Shown here: in pieces, positions 13,083 through 22,841 of the stretch | Layout: each line of letters begins with the position of its first letter | Position numbering within the stretch: the stretch's first letter is position 1 | Made by a program: the position numbers and the translations under genes | Notes under the pieces: generated by a model | The model's database searches: none | Seen by the model: only the letters and a program-made list of their open reading frames with translations | What the model was told of the DNA's origin: nothing | Assembly (NCBI GenBank): GCA_024640955.1 | Contig: JAHEDZ010000011.1 | Location: 4,403-68,402 of the forward strand | Reading direction: 5' to 3' | DNA: 64,000 nucleotides | DNA from: Oceanospirillaceae bacterium | GTDB taxonomy: Bacteria; Pseudomonadota; Gammaproteobacteria; Pseudomonadales; Balneatricaceae

Positions 13083-14372
13083 TTAACAAGCCTGACTCAA
13101 ATCCGAATCGAACTGATTAAAGAACTCAATCACCATAGCTGCAGTCCAAGTAAAGGTATCACCACCGCAGGGGGTACCTGTAATCGGACCGTAATACTCA
13201 GCAAAGCCGCTGGTCTCAATCAGATCGATACTGTCAGTCACTATACGGTGGATAACTTTATCCTCTCCCCCTGCCCTCAGCCCTTGAGCGATCATGTAAT
13301 TTACAATCAGCCAAACGGGCCCGCGCCAATAACGTAACTCATCAAATTCGGCCTCTGTACTGGGGTGGCTGGCAACAAGATAGCGTGTTGTCTGCCCGAT
13401 GGTCTCAATTGTTTGAGCCACTCGATGGATCCTTGCTTGAGGAACAGGCGCAAATACAGCCAAAAGACCGCCTATTGAGGGACTGTTCACCGGCTCGTTA
13501 CTCACCCGGTCAAAGCATAAATACTGTCCAAACTCTTCAGACCAAAGAAGCTCCATAGAACTAAGCATCGCTGATGCCATGGTCATTGAGGCACTTTGAA
13601 TCTCTGATTCTCCAAGCTCTCCTGCTAGTTCTGCCGCTGCAAAGCAGGAGCGGATTAGAATCGCATTAAAGCCAGGGTCAACTATCTGGAACGGAGACTG
13701 TATGGCAATCTCGCGATTGTCCCAGCCAAGGCTTCTAAACTTCTCCACCAACCATATGTAACGTTTGTACTGTTCATCCGTCGGGCGATGATCGGGGTTG
13801 GCATGCGACGTGTCACGTCGAACGAACGGTTTAACCCCTTCAGTAGGCACCCGCTCAAATGCCCGGTCCCAGTCTACAGAGTTATCCCTTCCAGATTCCC
13901 AAGGGTGTACGATCGCTACCAGGCCTGACGCGTCTGCACGATAATTGGCAAACCATTGATGCCACTTGTGCACGCTGACTAAAAGAGCCCGCGCTCGATC
14001 AGCGAAAAGCGCTTTATTAGTGCAGCGTTTATACAGTTCGCAGAGCGCAAAACCCGCCACAGGTGGCTGGGTGATACCCGATGTTGGAACCGGTTGATCG
14101 GTTTGCCACACATCAGTATTTGGGAAGTAACCATCGTCCGGTTCGTGAAAAATAATATGTGGGACCATGCCATCGTTCCACTGCGACGCAAACAGGGTCT
14201 CAAGTTCGACAAAGGCCCTATCAATATCAAAATGAGAAAATCCAAGCGAACTAAGGCAGCTATCCCAATTCCACTGGAACGGATAGAGTCCATGTGTCGG
14301 AACAGTGTATCGACCGCGATCATTCTTACGCATAATCGCTTCGGCTTTTTGGAGATCTTTTGTTCGGTTCAT
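13083..14372 (-). CDS. Glucosylglycerate/mannosylglycerate hydrolase-like GH63 enzyme
   Basis: 429 aa (alpha/alpha)6-barrel glycosidase without signal peptide, so cytoplasmic. Motifs of the bacterial MGH/GgH group are GLYPFQWNWDSCLSSLGF, NDGMVPHIIFH, TSGITQPPVAGF, HPWESGRDNS (catalytic acid Asp region), YWRGPVWLIVNYM and EYYGPITGTPCGGDTFTWTA (catalytic base Glu region). Family members hydrolyse the compatible solutes glucosylglycerate or mannosylglycerate to sugar and glycerate. It is the last gene of an operon with a MalEFGK-like importer, 4 bp after the ATPase gene, which fits import followed by hydrolysis. Trehalase or other GH15/37/63-like substrates remain possible. Confidence 0.82.
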   Translation of the reverse strand: MNRTKDLQKAEAIMRKNDRGRYTVPTHGLYPFQWNWDSCLSSLGFSHFDIDRAFVELETLFASQWNDGMVPHIIFHEPDDGYFPNTDVWQTDQPVPTSGITQPPVAGFALCELYKRCTNKALFADRARALLVSVHKWHQWFANYRADASGLVAIVHPWESGRDNSVDWDRAFERVPTEGVKPFVRRDTSHANPDHRPTDEQYKRYIWLVEKFRSLGWDNREIAIQSPFQIVDPGFNAILIRSCFAAAELAGELGESEIQSASMTMASAMLSSMELLWSEEFGQYLCFDRVSNEPVNSPSIGGLLAVFAPVPQARIHRVAQTIETIGQTTRYLVASHPSTEAEFDELRYWRGPVWLIVNYMIAQGLRAGGEDKVIHRIVTDSIDLIETSGFAEYYGPITGTPCGGDTFTWTAAMVIEFFNQFDSDLSQAC

Positions 14373-14376
14373 ACGT

Positions 14377-15423
14377 TTAAACCTCCAGCGCTTTGGTTGT
14401 ATTTTTATCGAACCAACGAATCCGGTCCAATTGCGGCTGTAGTTTGAGATGATCGCCAGCTTTTACCTCAAGCCCACTATCCAAAACTGCACGGAACATC
14501 CGTCCACCTACATCGCAAGTCACATGCAGATGCGCCCCAAGGGGCTCCACTAAACGGACTCGCGCGTCTAGCCCCGTTTCAGCAATCACAACATCTTCCG
14601 GCCGAATCGCGAAGTGTATTTGGTCTTCGTCAGATTTCGGTCCTGAGTAGTGCTCGCCAGCCACTCTCCACTGATGATTTTCGGCGCGATCTGCAACAAC
14701 AAAGTTCATGGGCGGGTTGCCGATAAACCCTGCCACAAACTCTGCGGCTGGATTGCGATATACCTCCATCGGTGTTGCTGCCTGAACGATTTCACCGCGA
14801 TTCATAACACTGATGCGGTCCGCCAGGCTCATCGCCTCAACCTGATCATGTGTGACATAAATGGCGGTCGTTTCGCTCTCGGCAAGGACACCTTTCAGCT
14901 CTGCACGCATCTCTAACCTAAGTAGTGCATCCAGATTAGAGAGCGGTTCATCCATCAAGATAACATCAGGCTCCATTGCCAAAGCACGAGCAACCGCCAC
15001 TCGCTGACGCTGTCCGCCGGAGAGTTCACCTGAATAGCGGCCAAGTAGCTGTTCAATGTGCATCAGTGAAGCAGTCCGCTTTACACGCTCCTGTACAACA
15101 GCTTCAGGCTGCTTTTGCATACGCAAACCGAAACCGATATTTTCAAATACCGTCATATGGGGAAACACCGCATAGTTCTGGAAAACCATTGCGATACCCC
15201 TATCTTTCGGCGGAAGATGGTCAATGCGTTTACCGCCAATCCAAACCTCTCCACTGGTTGCGGTTTCTAGGCCGGCAATGATGCGTAGCAGCGTCGTTTT
15301 ACCACAACCAGAGGCACCCAGAAGCACCATAAATTCGCGGTCGCTTATCGTCAGGTTGATATCACTTAGCGCCTGATAAGTCTCAAACTTCTTAGCGACG
15401 TTTTTAATTAGTATCTCAGCCAT
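14377..15423 (-). CDS. MalK/UgpC-like sugar ABC importer ATPase
   Basis: 348 aa ATPase of a carbohydrate uptake transporter-1. I start at 15423 (MAEILIKNVAKKFETYQAL), because the longer frame adds a non-conserved leader. Walker A is GASGCGKTTLLRI, Q-loop VFQNYAVFPHMTV, signature LSGGQRQRVAVARALA, Walker B VILMDEPLSNLD, H-loop YVTHDQVEAMSLAD. A C-terminal TOBE/MalK regulatory domain follows (NPPMNFVVADR; IHFAIRPEDVVIAE). It powers the two permeases encoded directly upstream. Confidence 0.93.
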   Translation of the reverse strand: MAEILIKNVAKKFETYQALSDINLTISDREFMVLLGASGCGKTTLLRIIAGLETATSGEVWIGGKRIDHLPPKDRGIAMVFQNYAVFPHMTVFENIGFGLRMQKQPEAVVQERVKRTASLMHIEQLLGRYSGELSGGQRQRVAVARALAMEPDVILMDEPLSNLDALLRLEMRAELKGVLAESETTAIYVTHDQVEAMSLADRISVMNRGEIVQAATPMEVYRNPAAEFVAGFIGNPPMNFVVADRAENHQWRVAGEHYSGPKSDEDQIHFAIRPEDVVIAETGLDARVRLVEPLGAHLHVTCDVGGRMFRAVLDSGLEVKAGDHLKLQPQLDRIRWFDKNTTKALEV

Positions 15424-15442
15424 TACATTGTCCTCAGAGCCG

Positions 15443-16273
15443 CTAGCGGTTAGCGATGCCCCACATAGCAAATAGGTATTTTCGCACTGCAAATATGAAA
15501 ACCAGCGCCGGTACAACAAGAATAAAACCACCCGCAAATTTCAGGTGTAGCGGAGAGGTATCGAGGTTTTGCAGCAGAAACGCCGTCAGTGTTCGATTCT
15601 CTATCGTGAGAACAGCTGCCGCGAAAACCTCATTCCACGAAATAACAAAAGCAAAAATTGCTGAGGCGGTGATTCCCGGTAAGATCAGCGGCAGAACCAC
15701 GTATCTGAAACCAGTCAGACGGGTGCAACCGAGTGTCCAAGACGCTTCCTCCAGCTCAACCGGTATCCCTGAAAACAGCGAGAAGGTGATAAGTACAGCA
15801 AAAGGTATAGCCAATGTTGTATGAACCAGCGCAAGACCAAAAATAGTGTCATCCAGACCCACCTGAATAAACATAACCGTCAGAGGCAAGGCCAACAGAG
15901 GTAACGGAAAAGCACGGGTCAACAGTATCAACAGTCGGAATAGTTCTTTACCTTTAAAATCGAAGCGCGATAGTGCGTAACCTGCCGGCGCACCAATCAC
16001 AATAGAGAGAACCATTGTGATCGCAGCAACATAAATCGAGTTAATCAGCGCACTGACCATCCCGCTGAAGCCGGCAAAGAATTCGAGGCTGGCGGTATCA
16101 AACTCCGGCACAAACGATTTTGGAAAACCCGAAACCGCAGCCGGGGACGATAGTGTATTGACCAGCAACAAATAGATAGGAACCAGTACCCAGGCGCACA
16201 ACAGAGCAACGGATGCACCGTAGACCCAACGGCCTGCGCGCACTGTACTGGTATTCGATAGTGAAGTACTCAT
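15443..16273 (-). CDS. MalG-like sugar ABC importer permease
   Basis: 276 aa inner-membrane protein with six predicted TM segments. The EAA coupling loop is EEASWTLGCTRLTGFRYVVLPL, which contacts the ATPase. Its ATG overlaps the stop of the other permease gene by 4 bp (ATGA), so the two are coupled and probably form a heterodimer. The ATPase gene follows after 19 bp. Confidence 0.92.
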   Translation of the reverse strand: MSTSLSNTSTVRAGRWVYGASVALLCAWVLVPIYLLLVNTLSSPAAVSGFPKSFVPEFDTASLEFFAGFSGMVSALINSIYVAAITMVLSIVIGAPAGYALSRFDFKGKELFRLLILLTRAFPLPLLALPLTVMFIQVGLDDTIFGLALVHTTLAIPFAVLITFSLFSGIPVELEEASWTLGCTRLTGFRYVVLPLILPGITASAIFAFVISWNEVFAAAVLTIENRTLTAFLLQNLDTSPLHLKFAGGFILVVPALVFIFAVRKYLFAMWGIANR

Positions 16274-17115
16274 ATCTGGGCCCCCTTCGGTACACGCAGA
16301 GCACGAAGAATGACCAATGTGAAGGCAATTGAGATGCCCAATATCACCAGCGCTATCGCAGCTGCTGAACCGCTGTCGAGCAGGTCAAATTGATAGCTAT
16401 ACGTTTCACCCATCAATACAGGGAAGAGGGTTCCGCCTAGCGCCGCAACAACTGCAAAAATCTCGAACGCTAGAATCACCCGCAGAACCAAGGCGGTCTG
16501 GAGTGAAGGACGTAACAGTGGGAGAGTAATGCGTGTGAAGCGTTTCCAGGGTGACGCACCAAAAACTTCGGCAGCTTCGTAGTACTCTTTTGGTATCAAT
16601 CCAATACCGGCAACAAGAATAACCAGCATAATCGCGGTTGCACGCCAAATTTCAGCCAAAGCAATTGCTAGGAAGACCATTCCCATACTCTTATATGAGA
16701 GCAGGCTCGTAGGGCGATCTATCATGCCCAACGAATGCATCATGGAGTTGAGGAATCCAGACTGCTCAAAAATAGCCAACCAAATAATACCTGCGGCTAG
16801 ATCAGATATACCCAGCGGAATCGTCCAGATGTAGAGGACGATATCCCGCCCCTTTTTCATGCGGTTGACCATCGTTGCCATTAGCAGTGCCAAGGCGAGT
16901 TGCACTGGAACAACCGCCGCTGCCAACAACAGTGTATTCTTCAGTGAGATTGGAAATTTCCAATCGGAGAAGACACGTTCAAAGTTAGCAAGAGTTAAAC
17001 CCTGATCGTTCGTAAATGCCTGCCCTGCTACCTGAAAGAACGGATAGAGAAAAAACAGACATAGGAAGAGCGTTACCGGCAATATAAGCAGATAAGGCAA
17101 TCTATTGGAGTTCAT
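16270..17115 (-). CDS. MalF-like sugar ABC importer permease
   Basis: 281 aa inner-membrane protein. I start at 17115 (MNSNRLPYLLILPVTLFLCL), where TM1 begins, because the frame upstream adds an arginine-rich leader unlike the family. The EAA loop is EAAEVFGASPWKRFTRITLPLL. It follows the binding-protein gene by about 80 bp and overlaps the MalG-like gene. It is shorter than E. coli MalF, as usual for CUT1 permeases of disaccharides and osmolytes. Confidence 0.92.
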   Translation of the reverse strand: MNSNRLPYLLILPVTLFLCLFFLYPFFQVAGQAFTNDQGLTLANFERVFSDWKFPISLKNTLLLAAAVVPVQLALALLMATMVNRMKKGRDIVLYIWTIPLGISDLAAGIIWLAIFEQSGFLNSMMHSLGMIDRPTSLLSYKSMGMVFLAIALAEIWRATAIMLVILVAGIGLIPKEYYEAAEVFGASPWKRFTRITLPLLRPSLQTALVLRVILAFEIFAVVAALGGTLFPVLMGETYSYQFDLLDSGSAAAIALVILGISIAFTLVILRALRVPKGAQI

Positions 17116-17194
17116 TGGGCTACCAGCGATTATGGTGTGACAGAGTGAATAAAAGAGGAGGCGCCACAGGACGCGACGCCCCCCCACGAGCCGG

Positions 17195-18460
17195 TTACTC
17201 TACCGGGCACGCACCTTCAGACGGTGCATCCGGTGCCCAACAAGGCGCACCTGTTTCATTCATTATTGCAGCCAGCTTACCCTTCTGATCATCGAGTACC
17301 ATCCGGATGTCCTGACCTGCCAAGACGATTCGTTCAAAAGTATCGCTGTAGACTTTACTGAAGTCACCGCCCTTCGAACCCAGTCCAGCAGGTAAGAGGC
17401 CTGGGTTAGCATCAGATGAGCTACTCATCTTAGCGACGGCATTGCCTGCGGCAGCTACGGCTGGTGGCAAGTCGCCCGGCAAATTAACATCAACCACGGG
17501 GAAGAAGTTGGTCGCACGTAAGGTGGCGATCTGTGTTTCCGGCTTCAGCATATGTTGCACAAGCTCCTTCGCAGCATCCATGTCTGGTGCGGTGCGCGGA
17601 ATCGCTACACCAGCCAAGACAGGCATGAAGCCTCGGCCCTCTGGTCCGGCAGGCGCAGGAAACGCAACAAAGTCATCAGGACGTTCGTTGAAGGCTTGCG
17701 CTAGACGCGATGTGTGGTCGAATGCGATCCAAGCATCGCCACTCAGCAACTGCTCCTGCAAGAATGAGAAGTTGGTTGAAGCAGGGTTTGTGTGCTCCCA
17801 CAGCTCGAGAAACTTCTCCCATGCACCGACGGCTTTATCTGATGCGAAAGTGCGGACAACACCATCAGTAAAGGATGGGTACAGGTAACCCTGGAAGAAT
17901 CGGTGTTTCAGGCCTTTTGGACCAGCAGGGAAGCCAAACTTTGGTTCTCCAGTTGCTTCATGAACATTCGCAGCCCAAGCTATCAATTGATCGTAAGTCA
18001 GCGCGTCAATGTTAGCGCCCTCTGGCAGGTATTGAAGCGCCTCTTTGTTCGCTGCCATTATGTAGCTAGCCTGCATCCACGGGATATATTGCAGGCTGGA
18101 TTCACCTAACTTCGCCAAGTTATTAAATGTCGCACTGTTCGACTCTACGCCCAGGTCTGATAGATCGACCAAATCCGCTGCATCCATCGCTGCATAGTCT
18201 CCGTGCAACGCACCGAGCACGCCAATAGAACCGCTTCCCGCCTCTAACTCTGCCTGTAAACGAGTCAACCAAGGGCCGCCATCGTTAGCCTGGTAATCTA
18301 CCGTACCAGCGCCAGCAAGAACCTGTTCACGCATCGCCTGCTGCTCCTGCACTGGCTTGGCCTGCGTCGACCAGAACAGAACGTCTGCTGACGCCGCGTT
18401 TGCAATGATCGCCGCGGGAAGTGCGATAGCAAGAGCAAGTTTCGATTTTATTGTTTTCAT
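17195..18460 (-). CDS. Extracellular solute-binding protein (family 1) of the sugar ABC importer
   Basis: 421 aa periplasmic binding protein with signal peptide MKTIKSKLALAIALPAAIIA and cleavage near ASADV. The fold is that of MalE-like proteins: VLFWSTQAKPVQEQQAM early, YIPWMQASYIMAANKEALQYL, and the hinge-side GDAWIAFDHTSRLAQAF. Two cysteines near the C-terminus (APCWAPDAPSEGACPVE) may form a disulfide. It is the first gene of the operon and lies directly behind a candidate LacI-family operator. The ligand is probably the substrate of the hydrolase at 13083-14372. Confidence 0.92.
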   Translation of the reverse strand: MKTIKSKLALAIALPAAIIANAASADVLFWSTQAKPVQEQQAMREQVLAGAGTVDYQANDGGPWLTRLQAELEAGSGSIGVLGALHGDYAAMDAADLVDLSDLGVESNSATFNNLAKLGESSLQYIPWMQASYIMAANKEALQYLPEGANIDALTYDQLIAWAANVHEATGEPKFGFPAGPKGLKHRFFQGYLYPSFTDGVVRTFASDKAVGAWEKFLELWEHTNPASTNFSFLQEQLLSGDAWIAFDHTSRLAQAFNERPDDFVAFPAPAGPEGRGFMPVLAGVAIPRTAPDMDAAKELVQHMLKPETQIATLRATNFFPVVDVNLPGDLPPAVAAAGNAVAKMSSSSDANPGLLPAGLGSKGGDFSKVYSDTFERIVLAGQDIRMVLDDQKGKLAAIMNETGAPCWAPDAPSEGACPVE

Positions 18461-18558
18461 CTATCTCTCCAATTTGTGATATCAGCCCTGGAGCTGAAAC
18501 TGGTACCAACACCACTGCCGAACTGCAGTGGAGTTATGCAAATACGCACCCCAAGACT

Positions 18559-18574
18559 GGTACATCGTTATACC
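18559..18574 (+). promoter_or_regulatory. Candidate LacI-family operator of the ABC operon
   Basis: GGTACATCGTTATACC is a 16 bp dyad centred on CG, with 6 of 8 pairs matching. It lies 99 bp upstream of the binding-protein start and shares the CGTTATA core with the second operator at 18669-18682. LacI-family repressors usually bind such CG-centred dyads. Confidence 0.6.
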
Positions 18575-18668
18575 TACTGTCAATTATAAATTTATTTTTA
18601 TTCAACATATATAACGACGAAATAACGTAGATTATTGTTTTAATTGAATAAACTATTTTCACTTGAAG

Positions 18669-18682
18669 ATACAACGTTATAT
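18669..18682 (+). promoter_or_regulatory. Candidate LacI-family operator at the repressor gene
   Basis: ATACAACGTTATAT is a 14 bp dyad centred on CG with one mismatched pair. It ends 16 bp before the repressor ATG and would allow autoregulation. Additional half-sites TATAACG (18610-18616) and AATAACG (18621-18627) lie between it and the first operator. Confidence 0.62.
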
Positions 18683-18698
18683 CCATTAATCTTAGATC

Positions 18699-19715
18699 AT
18701 GAACAGAAAGCCAAAACTAAGTGATGTAGCTGAACTCGCGGGAGTTTCCGTCTCCACCGCAAGTCAGGTAATGAGAGGCGCAGGTCGCATCTCCGATGAC
18801 ACCGCCGCCCGAGTTCGCAAAGCTGCGGATAAACTCCGTTACGTCGTCAATGAGCGTGCTGCTTCTATGCGCTCCGGAAACAATCGCGAGATAGGCTTTG
18901 TAATCAACCAAATCGCCAACCCATTCAACGCTGAGGTAATTAGCGGCGTCAGCGACCTTCTCGAAGACAAAGGTTATCTGGTCTCGGTGCTCGATGCCCG
19001 AGACGACCCCGTAAGGCAGCATCAACACTTGGCATCGTTCATTCGCAGCGGGCGCGCGGGACTGTTATGGGTTCCAGCGTTTGGAACCAGAGAGGACGAC
19101 CTTGAGCTTCTAAAAAGCCACCGCGTGCCCACCGTAACATTCTTGCGAAAAATTGATGCTCGAGCCTTCGATCATATCGGTGTCGCAAATGAGGATGCAA
19201 CAGCGACAGCAACGCGTTATCTGGTGGATGCGGGCCATAAAGAGATCGCTTACCTAGGAGGCACCACAATGACTGTAGTGCGCTCAGCCAGGATTGCCGG
19301 CTATAAAAAAACACTGCAGCAATTGATCGACCGCGATCCAATAGTCTGGGATTGCGACGACAACAAATTAGCGGGGCTAGAGCAGATCAAGGCACTGCGC
19401 AACGCACACCCTGGGGTAACTGCTGTGGTCTGTAACGGCGATATGGTTGCGCTCGGGGCTTTACTAGGCCTGCAACGTATGGGATTGGAGGCCGGCAAGG
19501 ATCTTGCCGTAGTTGGCTTTGACGATATTCAAGATGCGGCCGCTGCCACTCCAGCTCTAACAACCATGAGTATCTGCCCTTATAAACTCGGACAGCGTTT
19601 AGCACAGACGCTTCTGCGACGACTGGAGTTTCCCGAATCACCGATAGAAATGATCGAAGTCAGCGCCCAACTAATTGAACGTGACTCAGCCAAGCCTAAA
19701 CCGTGCGGCGCATAG
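18699..19715 (+). CDS. LacI-family transcriptional repressor of the glycosylglycerate operon
   Basis: 338 aa regulator. The N-terminal helix-turn-helix and hinge helix are typical: KLSDVAELAGVSVSTASQVM, RISDDTAARVRKAADKLRYV, then VNERAASMRSG. The effector domain is periplasmic-binding-protein-like (EIGFVINQIANPFNAEVISG; VGFDDIQDAAAATPALTT). It is divergent from the binding-protein gene, with candidate operators in the gap, so it most likely represses the importer-hydrolase operon until the solute or its breakdown product binds. Its stop is only 1 bp from the stop of the convergent WYL gene. Confidence 0.9.
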   Translation: MNRKPKLSDVAELAGVSVSTASQVMRGAGRISDDTAARVRKAADKLRYVVNERAASMRSGNNREIGFVINQIANPFNAEVISGVSDLLEDKGYLVSVLDARDDPVRQHQHLASFIRSGRAGLLWVPAFGTREDDLELLKSHRVPTVTFLRKIDARAFDHIGVANEDATATATRYLVDAGHKEIAYLGGTTMTVVRSARIAGYKKTLQQLIDRDPIVWDCDDNKLAGLEQIKALRNAHPGVTAVVCNGDMVALGALLGLQRMGLEAGKDLAVVGFDDIQDAAAATPALTTMSICPYKLGQRLAQTLLRRLEFPESPIEMIEVSAQLIERDSAKPKPCGA

Positions 19716-19716
19716 A

Positions 19717-20571
19717 TCAGAACGCGAAAGAGACAACCGTATCTCCGGAGCCCTCGCTCACTGCCAACACCGGAAAACGCTGAGGCACCTGCGCTGCTTC
19801 GTGTAGCTCAGCCTCGCTGGTTGGAAGCAGATTAGCCTGTAAGAAATAGGTGATGAGTGCCTTACGAATCTTAAATGGCTCTAGCTGATTAAGATCGTAA
19901 TCATCACTGATCAGTGCTTGCTGCTCAGGCGAAAGTGCTGGATTAGGCACCAGACGTACCTCCAAACTCTCCTCCCAAGCGCTATCTTCGGGTAACAGAT
20001 CCGGCTCACCAAACTGGAGTTTTGGGGTGCCGCGGAAGCGGTTCAGCACAAAGTCGCGGAACCCCTGGCGCTCCCAACAGTAAGCGCGCACATGCAGGCG
20101 ATTGCTAGCACTGATAATAGCGCAGGGCGTCAGGCTACGACGGCTGCCGCTCGGGTTTTGCATCGATACGTAGGTCGTTTCAAAGCGAATACGGTGCTCA
20201 ATCGCGGTCAGTATGGCTGCGAGAGTACCCGGTGCAGTGCTGCGACTTAGGACAGGCACTGAATGGAAGTCAGGGTTACTGGGTATAGCGAGTCGCGAGA
20301 TGGTGATGAGCGAGTCTGCTGAATCTGGAATCAGTTTAGGTTTGAATTCCGAGGTTGGCTTGTAGCTGCGATCGGACGGCTCATAGGGGCGCACATTCTC
20401 CGGGGCCAGCTCAATATAGGTATGGATAGACTCGAGCGCTTGTGGACGCAAAATACCGAACGCCCCAGTCAGCATAGTGGGCGTTACCTCACGCTCCCAG
20501 AGCAGTTGGCGTTCTATAAAGCGCAACCGCTGTAGTTGCGGCCAAGAGGTCTCATTAATCGTTACAGCCAT
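19717..20571 (-). CDS. BrxR/CapW-like WYL-domain transcriptional regulator (orphan)
   Basis: 284 aa. The N-terminal winged helix (RLRFIERQLLWEREVTPTML, then FGILRPQALESIHTYIELAP) and the next segment (SYKPTSEFKPKLIPDS) fit the BrxR/CapW family, repressors usually found beside BREX, CBASS and other defence loci. The WYL core is AIISASNRLHVRAYCWERQG followed by FRDFVLNRF; the usual WHVR of the family reads LHVR. A C-terminal WCX-like dimerisation domain follows. WYL domains are thought to bind nucleic-acid or nucleotide signals. No defence genes are within the window, so its target is unknown. SD AAAGGA precedes the ATG. Confidence 0.8.
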   Translation of the reverse strand: MAVTINETSWPQLQRLRFIERQLLWEREVTPTMLTGAFGILRPQALESIHTYIELAPENVRPYEPSDRSYKPTSEFKPKLIPDSADSLITISRLAIPSNPDFHSVPVLSRSTAPGTLAAILTAIEHRIRFETTYVSMQNPSGSRRSLTPCAIISASNRLHVRAYCWERQGFRDFVLNRFRGTPKLQFGEPDLLPEDSAWEESLEVRLVPNPALSPEQQALISDDYDLNQLEPFKIRKALITYFLQANLLPTSEAELHEAAQVPQRFPVLAVSEGSGDTVVSFAF

Positions 20572-20761
20572 CTTCCATTCCTTTGTATCTGACTCTCTAC
20601 TCTATGTAACGCAGTTTAGCAGTAAAACCCTTTAACTCCTCAAGGGAGAGTAGATCCCAGCCGTTCACTTATACGTAGGTTTAGGGGAAGCTCACGCACT
20701 CAGGGACCGAAGAGTAAGACGTGACACACCAGTGGAGTGTGAATGCACTCGAGGGGTCATT

Positions 20762-20971
20762 ATGGGCTACGTCCTAGTTTTCATTAGTTTAATTGGTACA
20801 GGCGAAGTAGCAGCAACATCCGAGGGCCACTACCCTCAGATGAGCACCTGCTTCGAAGAGCGCGAGCTGCTGCTCAAAAAGTTGAAGCGCGAGGCGAATC
20901 CAGCAGAGCAAACCGTGCAGGCCGTTTGTCTTGCAGCGCCAGATACACTTGAACTTGCAATGGTAGACTAA
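20762..20971 (+). CDS. Small exported or membrane-anchored hypothetical protein
   Basis: 69 aa from the ATG at 20762, which has GAGGGG 5 nt upstream. The N-terminus MGYVLVFISLIGTGEVAATS is a short hydrophobic segment. The rest, with two cysteines (STCFEERELLLKKLKREA and VQAVCLAAP), is helical and charged. I recognise no function. It lies between the divergent WYL regulator and the Atm1-like gene, and could be a WYL target, but that is only proximity. Confidence 0.55.
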   Translation: MGYVLVFISLIGTGEVAATSEGHYPQMSTCFEERELLLKKLKREANPAEQTVQAVCLAAPDTLELAMVD

Positions 20972-21035
20972 ACGCCCGCTCTCTTTTTCTGATAGGCTTC
21001 AATAATAATACCCTTCTCATTTGGAGCGCCGTACA

Positions 21036-22841
21036 TTGCGCCATTCTCGTTCGGCTGACAGCGCCGCCAACGACCGTAAACCGGCTGGTTGGTCCGAAGC
21101 TTTTGACGTCATCAAGATGATCTGGCCTTATCTGTGGGAGTTTCGCACTCGCCTCGGATTTGCATTTGTGCTGCTCGTCCTTGCAAAGGTCGCTACGGTC
21201 ACGATGCCTTGGGTACTGAAGCAGATCGTTGATGGTTTGGATGAGTCGATCAATCCGGTACTCGTGGTACCGATAATGTTGATAATCGCCTATGGCCTGC
21301 TGCGTTTTGGCTCCGTCTTCTTTGCCGAAGCACGCGATGCCGTCTTTAGCCGCATCACCGAACGAGCTATGCGTTCGATGGTTCTGAGAGTCTTCCGTCA
21401 TTTGCATTCGCTAGAGCTTGAGTTTCATCTCTCACGTCAAACGGGTGGAATCTCGCGTGATATCGACCGCGGTGGTAACGGCTTCAGCTTCTTGATGCGC
21501 ATGCTGGTGTTCAATATTGTACCGACGCTGATCGAACTCGGAATGGTCGCAGCGATTCTGCTGGTTAACTTCAGTTACCTCTACGCCATTATCATCTTGG
21601 TCAGCGTTGGCTGTTACATCTACTTCACCATTTTAACAACTGAGTGGCGCAACCGCTTTGTGCGTGAAGCTAATCAACTGGATTCGCAGTCTAACACTCG
21701 CGCCATTGACTCACTGCTCAATTACGAGACGGTGAAATACTTCAACAATGAGGAGTTTGAGGCGCAGCAGTATGACTCCAATTTAGCGCGCTGGGAGAGT
21801 GCGCGACTCAAGACTCGCATGACCTTGATGCTGCTGAACTCAGGTCAGGCTCTGATCATTGGTGTCGGGATGATACTGCTACTATGGATGGCGGCACGCG
21901 ATGTAGCCAGCGGTGCCATTACACTGGGCTCGCTGGTGATGATTAACGCCTACATTTTGCAGCTCTTCATGCCGCTCAACTTCCTCGGCATGGTCTACCG
22001 CGAGGTACGCCGTGCACTCACAGACCTGGAGAATATGTTTGGCCTGCTAAAACGCAAACCGAGCATTGAAAATGCCCCCTCAGCTCTGCCACTGAAAGTG
22101 ATGGAGGGAGGCATTGAGTTTGATAAGGTGAATTTCGCCTACCATCAAGAGCGACCGATTCTAAAAAATCTCAGTTTCAAGGTAGAGCCCGGTTCTAAGG
22201 TGGCCATCGTCGGTCCGAGCGGTTCTGGCAAATCCACCTTGGCTCGCCTGCTTTTTCGCTTCTATGACCTACATGGTGGCGCTATTCGCATAGATGGACA
22301 GTCTATTGACCAAGTCACTCAGGAGAGTCTGCGACAGGCCATAGGCGTCGTGCCTCAGGACACCGTGCTGTTCAACGACAGCATTTACAACAATATCGCT
22401 TATGGGCGTCCAAGTGCTTCTGCTGAAGAGGTACGTGAGGCGATACGCATGGCCAATCTAGAGCCGTTTATCGCATCCCTTCCCGAGGGCACCGAAACAA
22501 AAGTGGGCGAGCGCGGACTTAAAGTTTCAGGCGGCGAGAAGCAACGAATTGCCATTGCACGCGTGCTGCTGAAACGCCCACCGATTATGCTATTCGACGA
22601 GGCAACCTCCGCGCTGGATAGCGCCACCGAGAAATCGATACTCGCGGCTTTCGAGACCCTCGCCCGCAACCACACTAGCCTTGTAATCGCGCATCGACTC
22701 TCTACCATTGTCGATGCAGATCAGATCCTTGTGTTGGACCAAGGCGAGCTAATCGAGACAGGGACACATCAACAGCTCCTCGCTAAGGCCGGTCGCTATG
22801 CCCAAATGTGGCAATTGCAGCAGGAAAACGAGGAATATTAG
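21036..22841 (+). CDS. Atm1/HMT1-type ABC exporter
   Basis: About 601 aa, six TM helices followed by an ABC domain in one chain. I choose TTG at 21036 (MRHSRSADSAAND) because GGAG lies 9 nt upstream; TTG at 21021 is an alternative and lacks an SD, and the first ATG (21117) would cut conserved residues. Atm1-like motifs: HLSRQTGGISRDIDRGGNG in the TM domain and NYETVKYFNNEEFEAQQY. ABC motifs: Walker A GPSGSGKSTLARLL, signature KVSGGEKQRIAIARVLLK, Walker B IMLFDEATSALD, H-loop IAHRLSTIVDAD. Relatives export glutathione persulfide-type compounds or metal-glutathione complexes. Confidence 0.92.
   Translation: MRHSRSADSAANDRKPAGWSEAFDVIKMIWPYLWEFRTRLGFAFVLLVLAKVATVTMPWVLKQIVDGLDESINPVLVVPIMLIIAYGLLRFGSVFFAEARDAVFSRITERAMRSMVLRVFRHLHSLELEFHLSRQTGGISRDIDRGGNGFSFLMRMLVFNIVPTLIELGMVAAILLVNFSYLYAIIILVSVGCYIYFTILTTEWRNRFVREANQLDSQSNTRAIDSLLNYETVKYFNNEEFEAQQYDSNLARWESARLKTRMTLMLLNSGQALIIGVGMILLLWMAARDVASGAITLGSLVMINAYILQLFMPLNFLGMVYREVRRALTDLENMFGLLKRKPSIENAPSALPLKVMEGGIEFDKVNFAYHQERPILKNLSFKVEPGSKVAIVGPSGSGKSTLARLLFRFYDLHGGAIRIDGQSIDQVTQESLRQAIGVVPQDTVLFNDSIYNNIAYGRPSASAEEVREAIRMANLEPFIASLPEGTETKVGERGLKVSGGEKQRIAIARVLLKRPPIMLFDEATSALDSATEKSILAAFETLARNHTSLVIAHRLSTIVDADQILVLDQGELIETGTHQQLLAKAGRYAQMWQLQQENEEY

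Follow-up and report, generated by a model that had tools for sequence, protein, structure and literature searches.

A BrxR/CapW-family regulator related to Wadjet operon regulators and standing alone in a Marinobacterium-like genus

CapW and BrxR are described as repressing their targets until single-stranded DNA (ssDNA) is bound (PMC13373217). In the survey of BrxR homologues by Picton et al. 2022 (PMC9122601), defence systems lie within 50 kb of 212 of 347 homologues, or 164 if only the downstream side is counted, which leaves 135 with no known defence system on either side and 183 with no downstream one. A member of this family that stands alone is thus not rare, and is of an already known kind. 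The same survey gives an inverted repeat upstream of 193 of the 347 homologues and none upstream of the other 154. The defence-free homologues may be pointers to undescribed systems, or they may be regulators with another task. Among other WYL regulators, PafBC, DriD and SiwR serve DNA-damage or genotoxic-stress responses and are described as activators.

Here we follow up a gene of this family in a window of 64,000 nucleotides, the whole stretch of DNA that was analysed, which is part of a genome of 2.59 Mb (42 contigs) with a single copy of the regulator. We take the genus to be Marinobacterium-like; no paper that joins the WYL domain with Marinobacterium was found among open-licence PubMed Central papers, and to our knowledge the kinship of the regulator with Wadjet regulators, its genus-wide presence and its changed DNA-reading positions are new. 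A well-preserved lone regulator in one marine genus suggests another job, and because its kinship can be traced, it occurs in every assembled genus genome and particular residues are changed, this option can be put directly to the test in a small marine genome.

Gene, fold and family of the regulator

The open reading frame predicted from the sequence is indeed present, intact and full length, with wHTH, WYL and WCX domains in one chain. Its features are as follows.

19717-20571, minus strand: BrxR/CapW-family regulator gene, an open reading frame of 284 aa with an ATG start
Residues ~1-75 (wHTH), 76-110 (linker), 111-182 (WYL) and 183-284 (WCX), minus strand: approximate domain limits
20407-20451, minus strand: recognition helix and the residue before it, codons 41-55 (helix H42-55 in the model)
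20095-20097, minus strand: codon 159, Leu instead of the typical Trp, equivalent to Trp170 of Sm CapW
20572-21020, no strand: region upstream of the regulator, used for dyad, promoter and ortholog comparisons

The motifs that the original prediction relied on (SYKPTSEFKP, HVRAYC and FRDFVL) are all found in the protein, as is the Leu (Leu159) that precedes HVRA, and the assignment to the BrxR/CapW type was borne out. In a phmmer search against the PDB, the best matches, all of nearly full-length coverage, were to 7tb5 (2.2e-33), BrxR 7t8k (1e-31) and CapW 9c5g (6.6e-26), followed by CapW 7tb6 (1.4e-23) and 7qfz (8.1e-19); 7tb5 and 7qfz are titled 'WYL domain-containing protein' in the phmmer list and named CapW and BrxR in the Foldseek list. 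The prediction would have been undone by best matches to general WYL regulators only, and these proved far weaker (PafBC 0.018, PafC 0.17). Profile scans gave WYL alone from Pfam, nothing from NCBIfam and two generic WYL models from PADLOC.

An AlphaFold2 model, built from an alignment of 18 sequences, had a mean pLDDT of 84 and a pTM of 0.74, with residues 1-3 and 92-107 below 50. The best 15 chains found by Foldseek with this model were all BrxR/CapW, including 9c5g, a CapW with ssDNA; PafBC (1.9e-8) and DriD (6.1e-7) were weaker. Similarly, VIA-align gave Z scores of 14.2-16.6 for six BrxR/CapW entries compared to 12.4 for the best PafBC entry. Whole-chain rmsd for these six entries was 11.0-15.5 A over 236-259 residues, so high that the model is not informative on the swapped domain arrangement. 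The gene is real, and its product is a full-length BrxR/CapW-family one-component regulator.

BrxR (Acinetobacter 7t8k/7t8l and E. fergusonii 7qfz) is the best fold match, and its base-reading Arg is kept in the regulator, with Arg in place of its wing Lys. However, the Acinetobacter protein falls outside the Wadjet-linked clade described below, and the regulator does not stand beside BREX, nor was PglZ found in the genus. CapW (7tb5, 7tb6 and 9c5g) is the closest in sequence, and it shares with the regulator the His for the WYL Tyr and seven pocket residues; in contrast, the regulator is not beside CBASS, no SMODS was found in the genus, the conserved CapW Trp is Leu, and the DNA-reading Ser/Gln/Ser residues are partly or wholly replaced. 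PafBC, DriD and SiwR are work-alikes for a non-defence role, PafBC and DriD being weaker matches in fold and PafBC also in sequence.

Neighbours and the search for defence genes

The regulator was found in five of six genus genomes, namely its own (G000) and G001 (71% identity), G002 (76%), G003 (86%) and G004 (76%). In the sixth, G005, a contig stops partway through the FAH-like gene, which is next to the regulator in other genomes, and the remainder of that gene is also missing; we therefore rejected this genome as evidence of loss and count the regulator as present in all five genus genomes with an assembled site.

Its neighbours, named here from their sequences, vary between genomes of the genus, as does the upstream DNA. 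In G000 it is flanked, as originally described, by a sugar-transport operon that has a LacI-type repressor (13083-19715) and, in the other direction, by an ABC exporter (21021-22841). The neighbours are an FAH-like gene and genes for a small membrane protein and an RRM protein in G001; FAH-like, PurT and exporter genes in G002; a different sugar operon and a CheB-like gene in G003; and FAH, LOG-like, amidohydrolase-like, LysR, PurT and exporter genes in G004. The FAH-like gene adjoins the regulator in three of the five gene-bearing genomes (G001, G002 and G004). None of the ten ortholog pairs had a common stretch beyond 9-12 nt (E 0.45) in the 300 bp upstream, whereas the coding sequences matched in all ten. 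The region at 20572-21020 held no sigma-70-like promoter by consensus and no nearby BrxR-type dyad; an 8-bp inverted repeat at 20596-20603/20647-20654 was rejected as an operator, having a spacer of 43 nt compared to the 5 nt described for BrxR operators (PMC9122601, PMC9122589). Between the regulator and the exporter, at 20732-20971 on the plus strand, is a small ORF with a signal-peptide-like start, of 79 aa from a GTG or 69 aa from an inner ATG at 20762.

The prediction that the gene lies away from any defence system agrees with our scans: among the matches listed, no dedicated defence gene was found near the regulator in the window or at the four ortholog loci (L031-L034). A PADLOC scan at 1e-10, with a model set representing 2023 knowledge, covered 48 of 52 window ORFs (all except three small ones and the regulator) and 57 of the 64 other ORFs of the ortholog loci, and was judged on the best 25 of 68 and the best 25 of 50 families. 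Matches to the GajB, DRT helicase, mad2, mad3 and MzaA models were set aside and read as Rep/RecB helicases, ABC ATPases, methyltransferases and a sigma factor. A rescan of 61 of the 105 ORFs returned two families with three matches, which we read as RpoH, TrmB and RsmD; it passed over helicases, ABC ATPases, two-component proteins and some housekeeping genes, the other 44 ORFs being judged on the best-listed families only.

No Jet operon stands beside the regulator at any of the five loci, and a tblastn search for Jet remnants, run with 15 Jet proteins on the window and on eight stretches from the genus, reached a best E of 0.26; the type I Jet queries did recover an MksFEB-like operon in L081. 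Over the whole genus genomes, which are 90-99% complete, the JetD marker DUF3322, DUF3375 (JetA3), PglZ and SMODS were each above cut-off in none of the six, with one weak DUF3322 match with stops in G004, and each rang in one to three of 14 control genomes. The JetC1 model matched in five of the six genus genomes (not G004), and also in seven of the 14 controls, including B. subtilis, which shows that it is not specific to Wadjet. The JetC1 match is part of a JetA-JetB-JetC operon with no JetD in G000, G001, G002 and G005, and partly in G003. Because a close MksB occurs in 93 of 114 family genomes, this operon is best read as a housekeeping MksBEF-like condensin. The copy at L081:7518-13067 (G000:C32) has JetA1, JetB1 and JetC1 as its top PADLOC calls, at 722, 327 and 1772 bits, while the true Wadjet proteins of locus L055 score lower (209, 223 and 576 bits); the type I Jet models thus match housekeeping condensin, a trap for automatic annotation.

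Kinship with Wadjet operon regulators

In the family, 51 of 116 genomes had some match to the regulator, with a best identity outside the genus of 43%. We also scanned one genome each for 84,980 species with two conserved peptides taken from five genus and two Wadjet-linked sequences, a source alignment that makes the peptides lean towards the Wadjet clade. The scan gave 21 loci, three in the genus, eight at 38-42% identity and ten at 27-36%, with no new ortholog. Indeed, no ortholog outside the genus was found in the family genomes, the species scan or a plasmid collection, in which all 402 matching records were below 60% identity. Among viral contigs, 65 stretches carried one of the two peptides, which reach close relatives only, and none encoded a relative. 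Mobility of the regulator is therefore not supported by the viral-contig and plasmid searches.

Outside the genus, each of the ten distinct loci with the best scores lies divergently upstream of a Wadjet operon. Eight of them are the species-scan loci at 38-42%, and the other two are the best distinct loci of the plasmid collection (H3 was omitted as a near-copy of H2). JetABCD is present in L054-L058 and JetA3/JetB3/JetC3 in L059 and L061, while L060 has JetA3 and JetB3 running off the contig. When PADLOC was run on four Jet proteins of L055, three of L059 and the JetA of L054, it called JetA1, JetB1, JetC1, JetD1, JetA3 and JetC3, and gave no match for the L059 JetB. By tblastn, the Jet proteins of L058 have matches at 69-86% in L056 and L057, and those of L059 at 64-82% in L060 and L061. 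Of the plasmid-collection loci, the one from V. nigripulchritudo is annotated with JetA, DUF4194 and JetD and with a JetC that an IS3 element interrupts, and the E. coli one has JetA3/B3/C3 at 83-92% identity to L059. These counts are separate from the neighbourhoods of L037-L050, which were judged by eye.

In a 48-row tree, the five genus rows and eight Wadjet-linked rows grouped together (100/99), with three CapW chains and the Acinetobacter BrxR falling outside this group. The tree omits L054 and L058 (the same loci as L006 and L007), the fragments L070 and L071 and the two plasmid-collection loci, and the program warned of long branches for L055, L006 and others. When L055, L006 or both were removed, in reduced trees that also left out 12 other rows, the group was recovered at 100/99, 100/100 and 100/99. 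With L006 or L055 in the tree the genus nests inside the Wadjet-linked rows, and 1-2% of 200 bootstrap trees unite those rows to its exclusion; once both are removed, the genus comes out as sister to them (98/92). Judged by sequence, then, the closest relatives of the regulator are regulators of Wadjet (Jet) operons, not of BREX or CBASS.

The WYL regulators of type I (JetABCD) and type III (JetABC) Wadjet operons share with the genus protein the clade, 38-42% identity and, by alignment, the same domains, and pocket residues Arg169, His171, Phe185 and Arg189 are present in all eight rows. They differ in that Tyr145, Ser147 or Arg183 vary in six of the eight rows, whereas all three are invariant in the genus, and in the Jet operon alongside, which the genus gene lacks, as does the genus judging by DUF3322 and DUF3375. 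The original prediction that either a defence locus was lost or the regulator took on a housekeeping role therefore fits the tree, although the system in question would be Wadjet, with which all ten best distinct loci are linked, and not BREX or CBASS. That prediction was to fail if the gene were fixed in all relatives with no defence genes nearby; this is what we see within the genus, at five of five assembled sites, but not outside it. From the relatives, we infer that an ancestral Wadjet operon may once have stood at the regulator's place, where no Jet remnant was seen.

DNA-reading residues, operators and the role of the regulator

The regulator is under purifying selection and is slightly less constrained than two control genes: for G002-G004, the sole pair with unsaturated synonymous sites, dN/dS is 0.030, compared to 0.023 for the exporter and 0.009 for rep. 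Mean pN/pS is 0.03 in helix 1, 0.31 in helices 2-3, 0.21 in the wing, 0.13 in the linker, 0.16 in WYL and 0.27 in WCX, and residues 1-30 have a mean identity of 99% in the genus.

A triple mutant of CapW at S42, Q45 and S47 is described as showing no DNA binding (PMC9122588). The equivalents in G000-G004 are L, T, A, L, A at the first position, Q, E, E, E, E at the second and L, Q, Q, L, Q at the third. Both Ser are lost in all five and the Gln is kept in one, G000 (L41, Q44 and L46), so that two or three of the three are changed in every genome. Ser, Gln and Ser are typical of the other 43 rows of the alignment rather than universal (22, 23 and 29 rows), and none of these rows has Glu at the second position or Leu at the first and third. 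In BrxR, R11 is reported to bind phosphate (PMC9122601), R38 to read bases and K64 to lie in the wing (PMC9122589); by an offset of 4 in the structure alignment, these correspond to R15, R42 and R68, which are invariant in the five genus rows. Mutation of CapW R32 or BrxR R47 is described as weakening or abolishing binding (PMC9122588, PMC9122589), the R47 mutant binding less well. The equivalent of R47 is Thr51 in all five genus rows and Arg in 5 of the 43 others, and that of R32 is P/A/A/L/A in the genus and Arg in 3 of the 43.

The pocket is better kept. Tyr145, Ser147, Arg169, His171, Arg183, Phe185 and Arg189 (Sm CapW numbers) are present in all five genus rows, Trp156 is replaced by Arg as in 41 of the 43 other rows, and His stands in place of the WYL Tyr, as it does in all 43. 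Trp170 of CapW is said to drive the switch (PMC9122588), and its replacement by Leu, pointed out in the original prediction, is seen in all five genus rows. The Leu does not mark out the orphan: 16 of the 43 non-genus rows also lack the Trp (Trp in 27, Tyr in 11, Gln in 3 and Leu in 2), and the two with Leu are Wadjet-linked. Because all eight Wadjet-linked rows carry Leu, Tyr or Gln here, loss of Trp170 most likely precedes separation from the operon.

Two arguments about the recognition region were set aside. Its fast change was demoted from proof of a new specificity to a hint, since identity over residues 39-52, 72% in the genus, varies among Wadjet-linked sets too (95% and 81% in two three-row sets, 100% among three near-copies and 56% among five diverged rows). 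The negative charge of its helix was rejected as a sign of lost DNA binding, since the 7tb6 and 7tb5 CapW proteins, with charges of -2 and -1, are described as binding DNA (PMC9122588).

We searched for dyads with arms of 8-13 and spacers of 3-7 against 200 shuffles, the p values being uncorrected over 17 tests. The Wadjet-linked intergenic regions had a dyad at p <=0.05 in five of eight cases (L054 0.005, L059 0.005, L060 0.010, L055 0.035 and L057 0.050; none at this level in L056, L058 and L061). In contrast, none of the five genus genes had one close by: that of G004 (p 0.025) is 239 bp upstream, inside the next gene, that of G000 (p 0.065) is 271 bp away, and the other three gave p of 0.51 to 1.0. 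The mksF promoters had no significant dyad in any of four genomes. The L054 dyad, at L054:7880-7908 between the Wadjet regulator and jetA, is a perfect inverted repeat with 12-bp arms and a 5-bp spacer, and is likely an operator.

On balance, we favour the reading that a Wadjet regulator stands here with no operon of its own and has been retained to act in trans, probably in response to ssDNA and with altered DNA specificity. In the ancestor of the genus, the regulator would have separated from a Wadjet operon or arrived without one, and selection would then have preserved it as a core regulator that acts in trans. If it works like BrxR and CapW, it would form a domain-swapped dimer whose winged helices bind an inverted-repeat operator for repression, and ssDNA, the ligand reported for CapW, would enter the WYL pocket and release the operator; dimerisation, the sensing of ssDNA, binding to new DNA sites and trans regulation are all projected from these relatives. 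The seven pocket residues are all kept, and the simplest account is that the regulator retains its response to ssDNA and acts in trans at altered DNA sites. Against this favoured reading, DNA binding could be weak or absent, given that four of the five orthologs have Glu for Gln and that both Ser are lost, and our searches yielded no target, no operator and no convincing upstream dyad. A fuller version, in which an anti-plasmid defence regulator was domesticated, keeping its ssDNA sensor, changing its DNA-reading helix and losing its own operator to become the genus-wide core regulator of a new, dispersed gene set, possibly a DNA-damage response, we put forward more tentatively, as a possibility somewhat short of an even chance.

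Complete loss of sequence-specific DNA binding, leaving only an ssDNA- or ligand-binding protein, would explain the replaced Ser/Gln/Ser (Glu at the second position and Leu at the first and third being seen in none of the 43 other rows), the Thr at BrxR R47 and the pN/pS of the HTH region, which exceeds those of helix 1 and WYL. We consider it quite improbable, since helix 1 is almost invariant, Arg15, Arg42 and Arg68 are kept throughout, WCX is almost as variable, R47 varies widely in the family and DNA-binding CapW proteins also have negative recognition helices. Regulation of the present neighbours is improbable to a similar degree. The sugar operon and exporter are directly adjacent in the window, and the distance between gene edges to an exporter ortholog is 1.3 kb (G002), 4.0 kb (G004) and 6.6 kb (G003); however, no sugar operon is alongside in G001, G002 and G004, that of G003 is another one (its LacI 26% identical), G001 has no exporter ortholog within 9 kb, and the upstream DNA is unconserved in all ten pairs.

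More distant targets were also weighed. Repression in trans of the JetD-less JetABC operon of the same genome is suggested by the presence of that operon, at least in part, in five of the genus genomes and by its distant relationship to the operons beside the sister regulators, and is nevertheless highly improbable: a close MksB is far more widespread in the family than the regulator, whose orthologs were found in the genus only, and no significant dyad precedes the operon in four of four genomes. Finally, the regulator might still repress an operon at another genomic site that serves defence or stress and is either undescribed or beyond the markers scanned. The 212 of 347 family members found near a defence system (PMC9122601) speak for this, and our whole-genome scans covered four markers and JetC1. 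We think it unlikely, as all five genomes whose site is assembled have the gene, whereas defence systems are gained and lost between closely related strains.

Other relatives stand beside further kinds of genes. Two Wadjet loci share three genes on the far side of the regulator, one methylase-like, one helicase-like and one more (L035:173-9592 and L036:11109-17244), perhaps a second defence module; in PADLOC the helicase gave weak PbeA and Cas3 matches and the 394-aa gene none. Of the next two plasmid-collection relatives (31.5 and 33.9%), one lies between TnsD and ATP-binding protein genes at a Tn7-like element (L092, NZ_OR497351.1 130836-143720) and one is near a restriction endonuclease gene. 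Among BrxR/CapW relatives at 27-29% identity, the one at L064:1888-7944 is divergent from a Cas6d/Cas10d/Cas7d/Cas5d module called by PADLOC, and those in L063 and L066 have, by eye, a similar Cas module.
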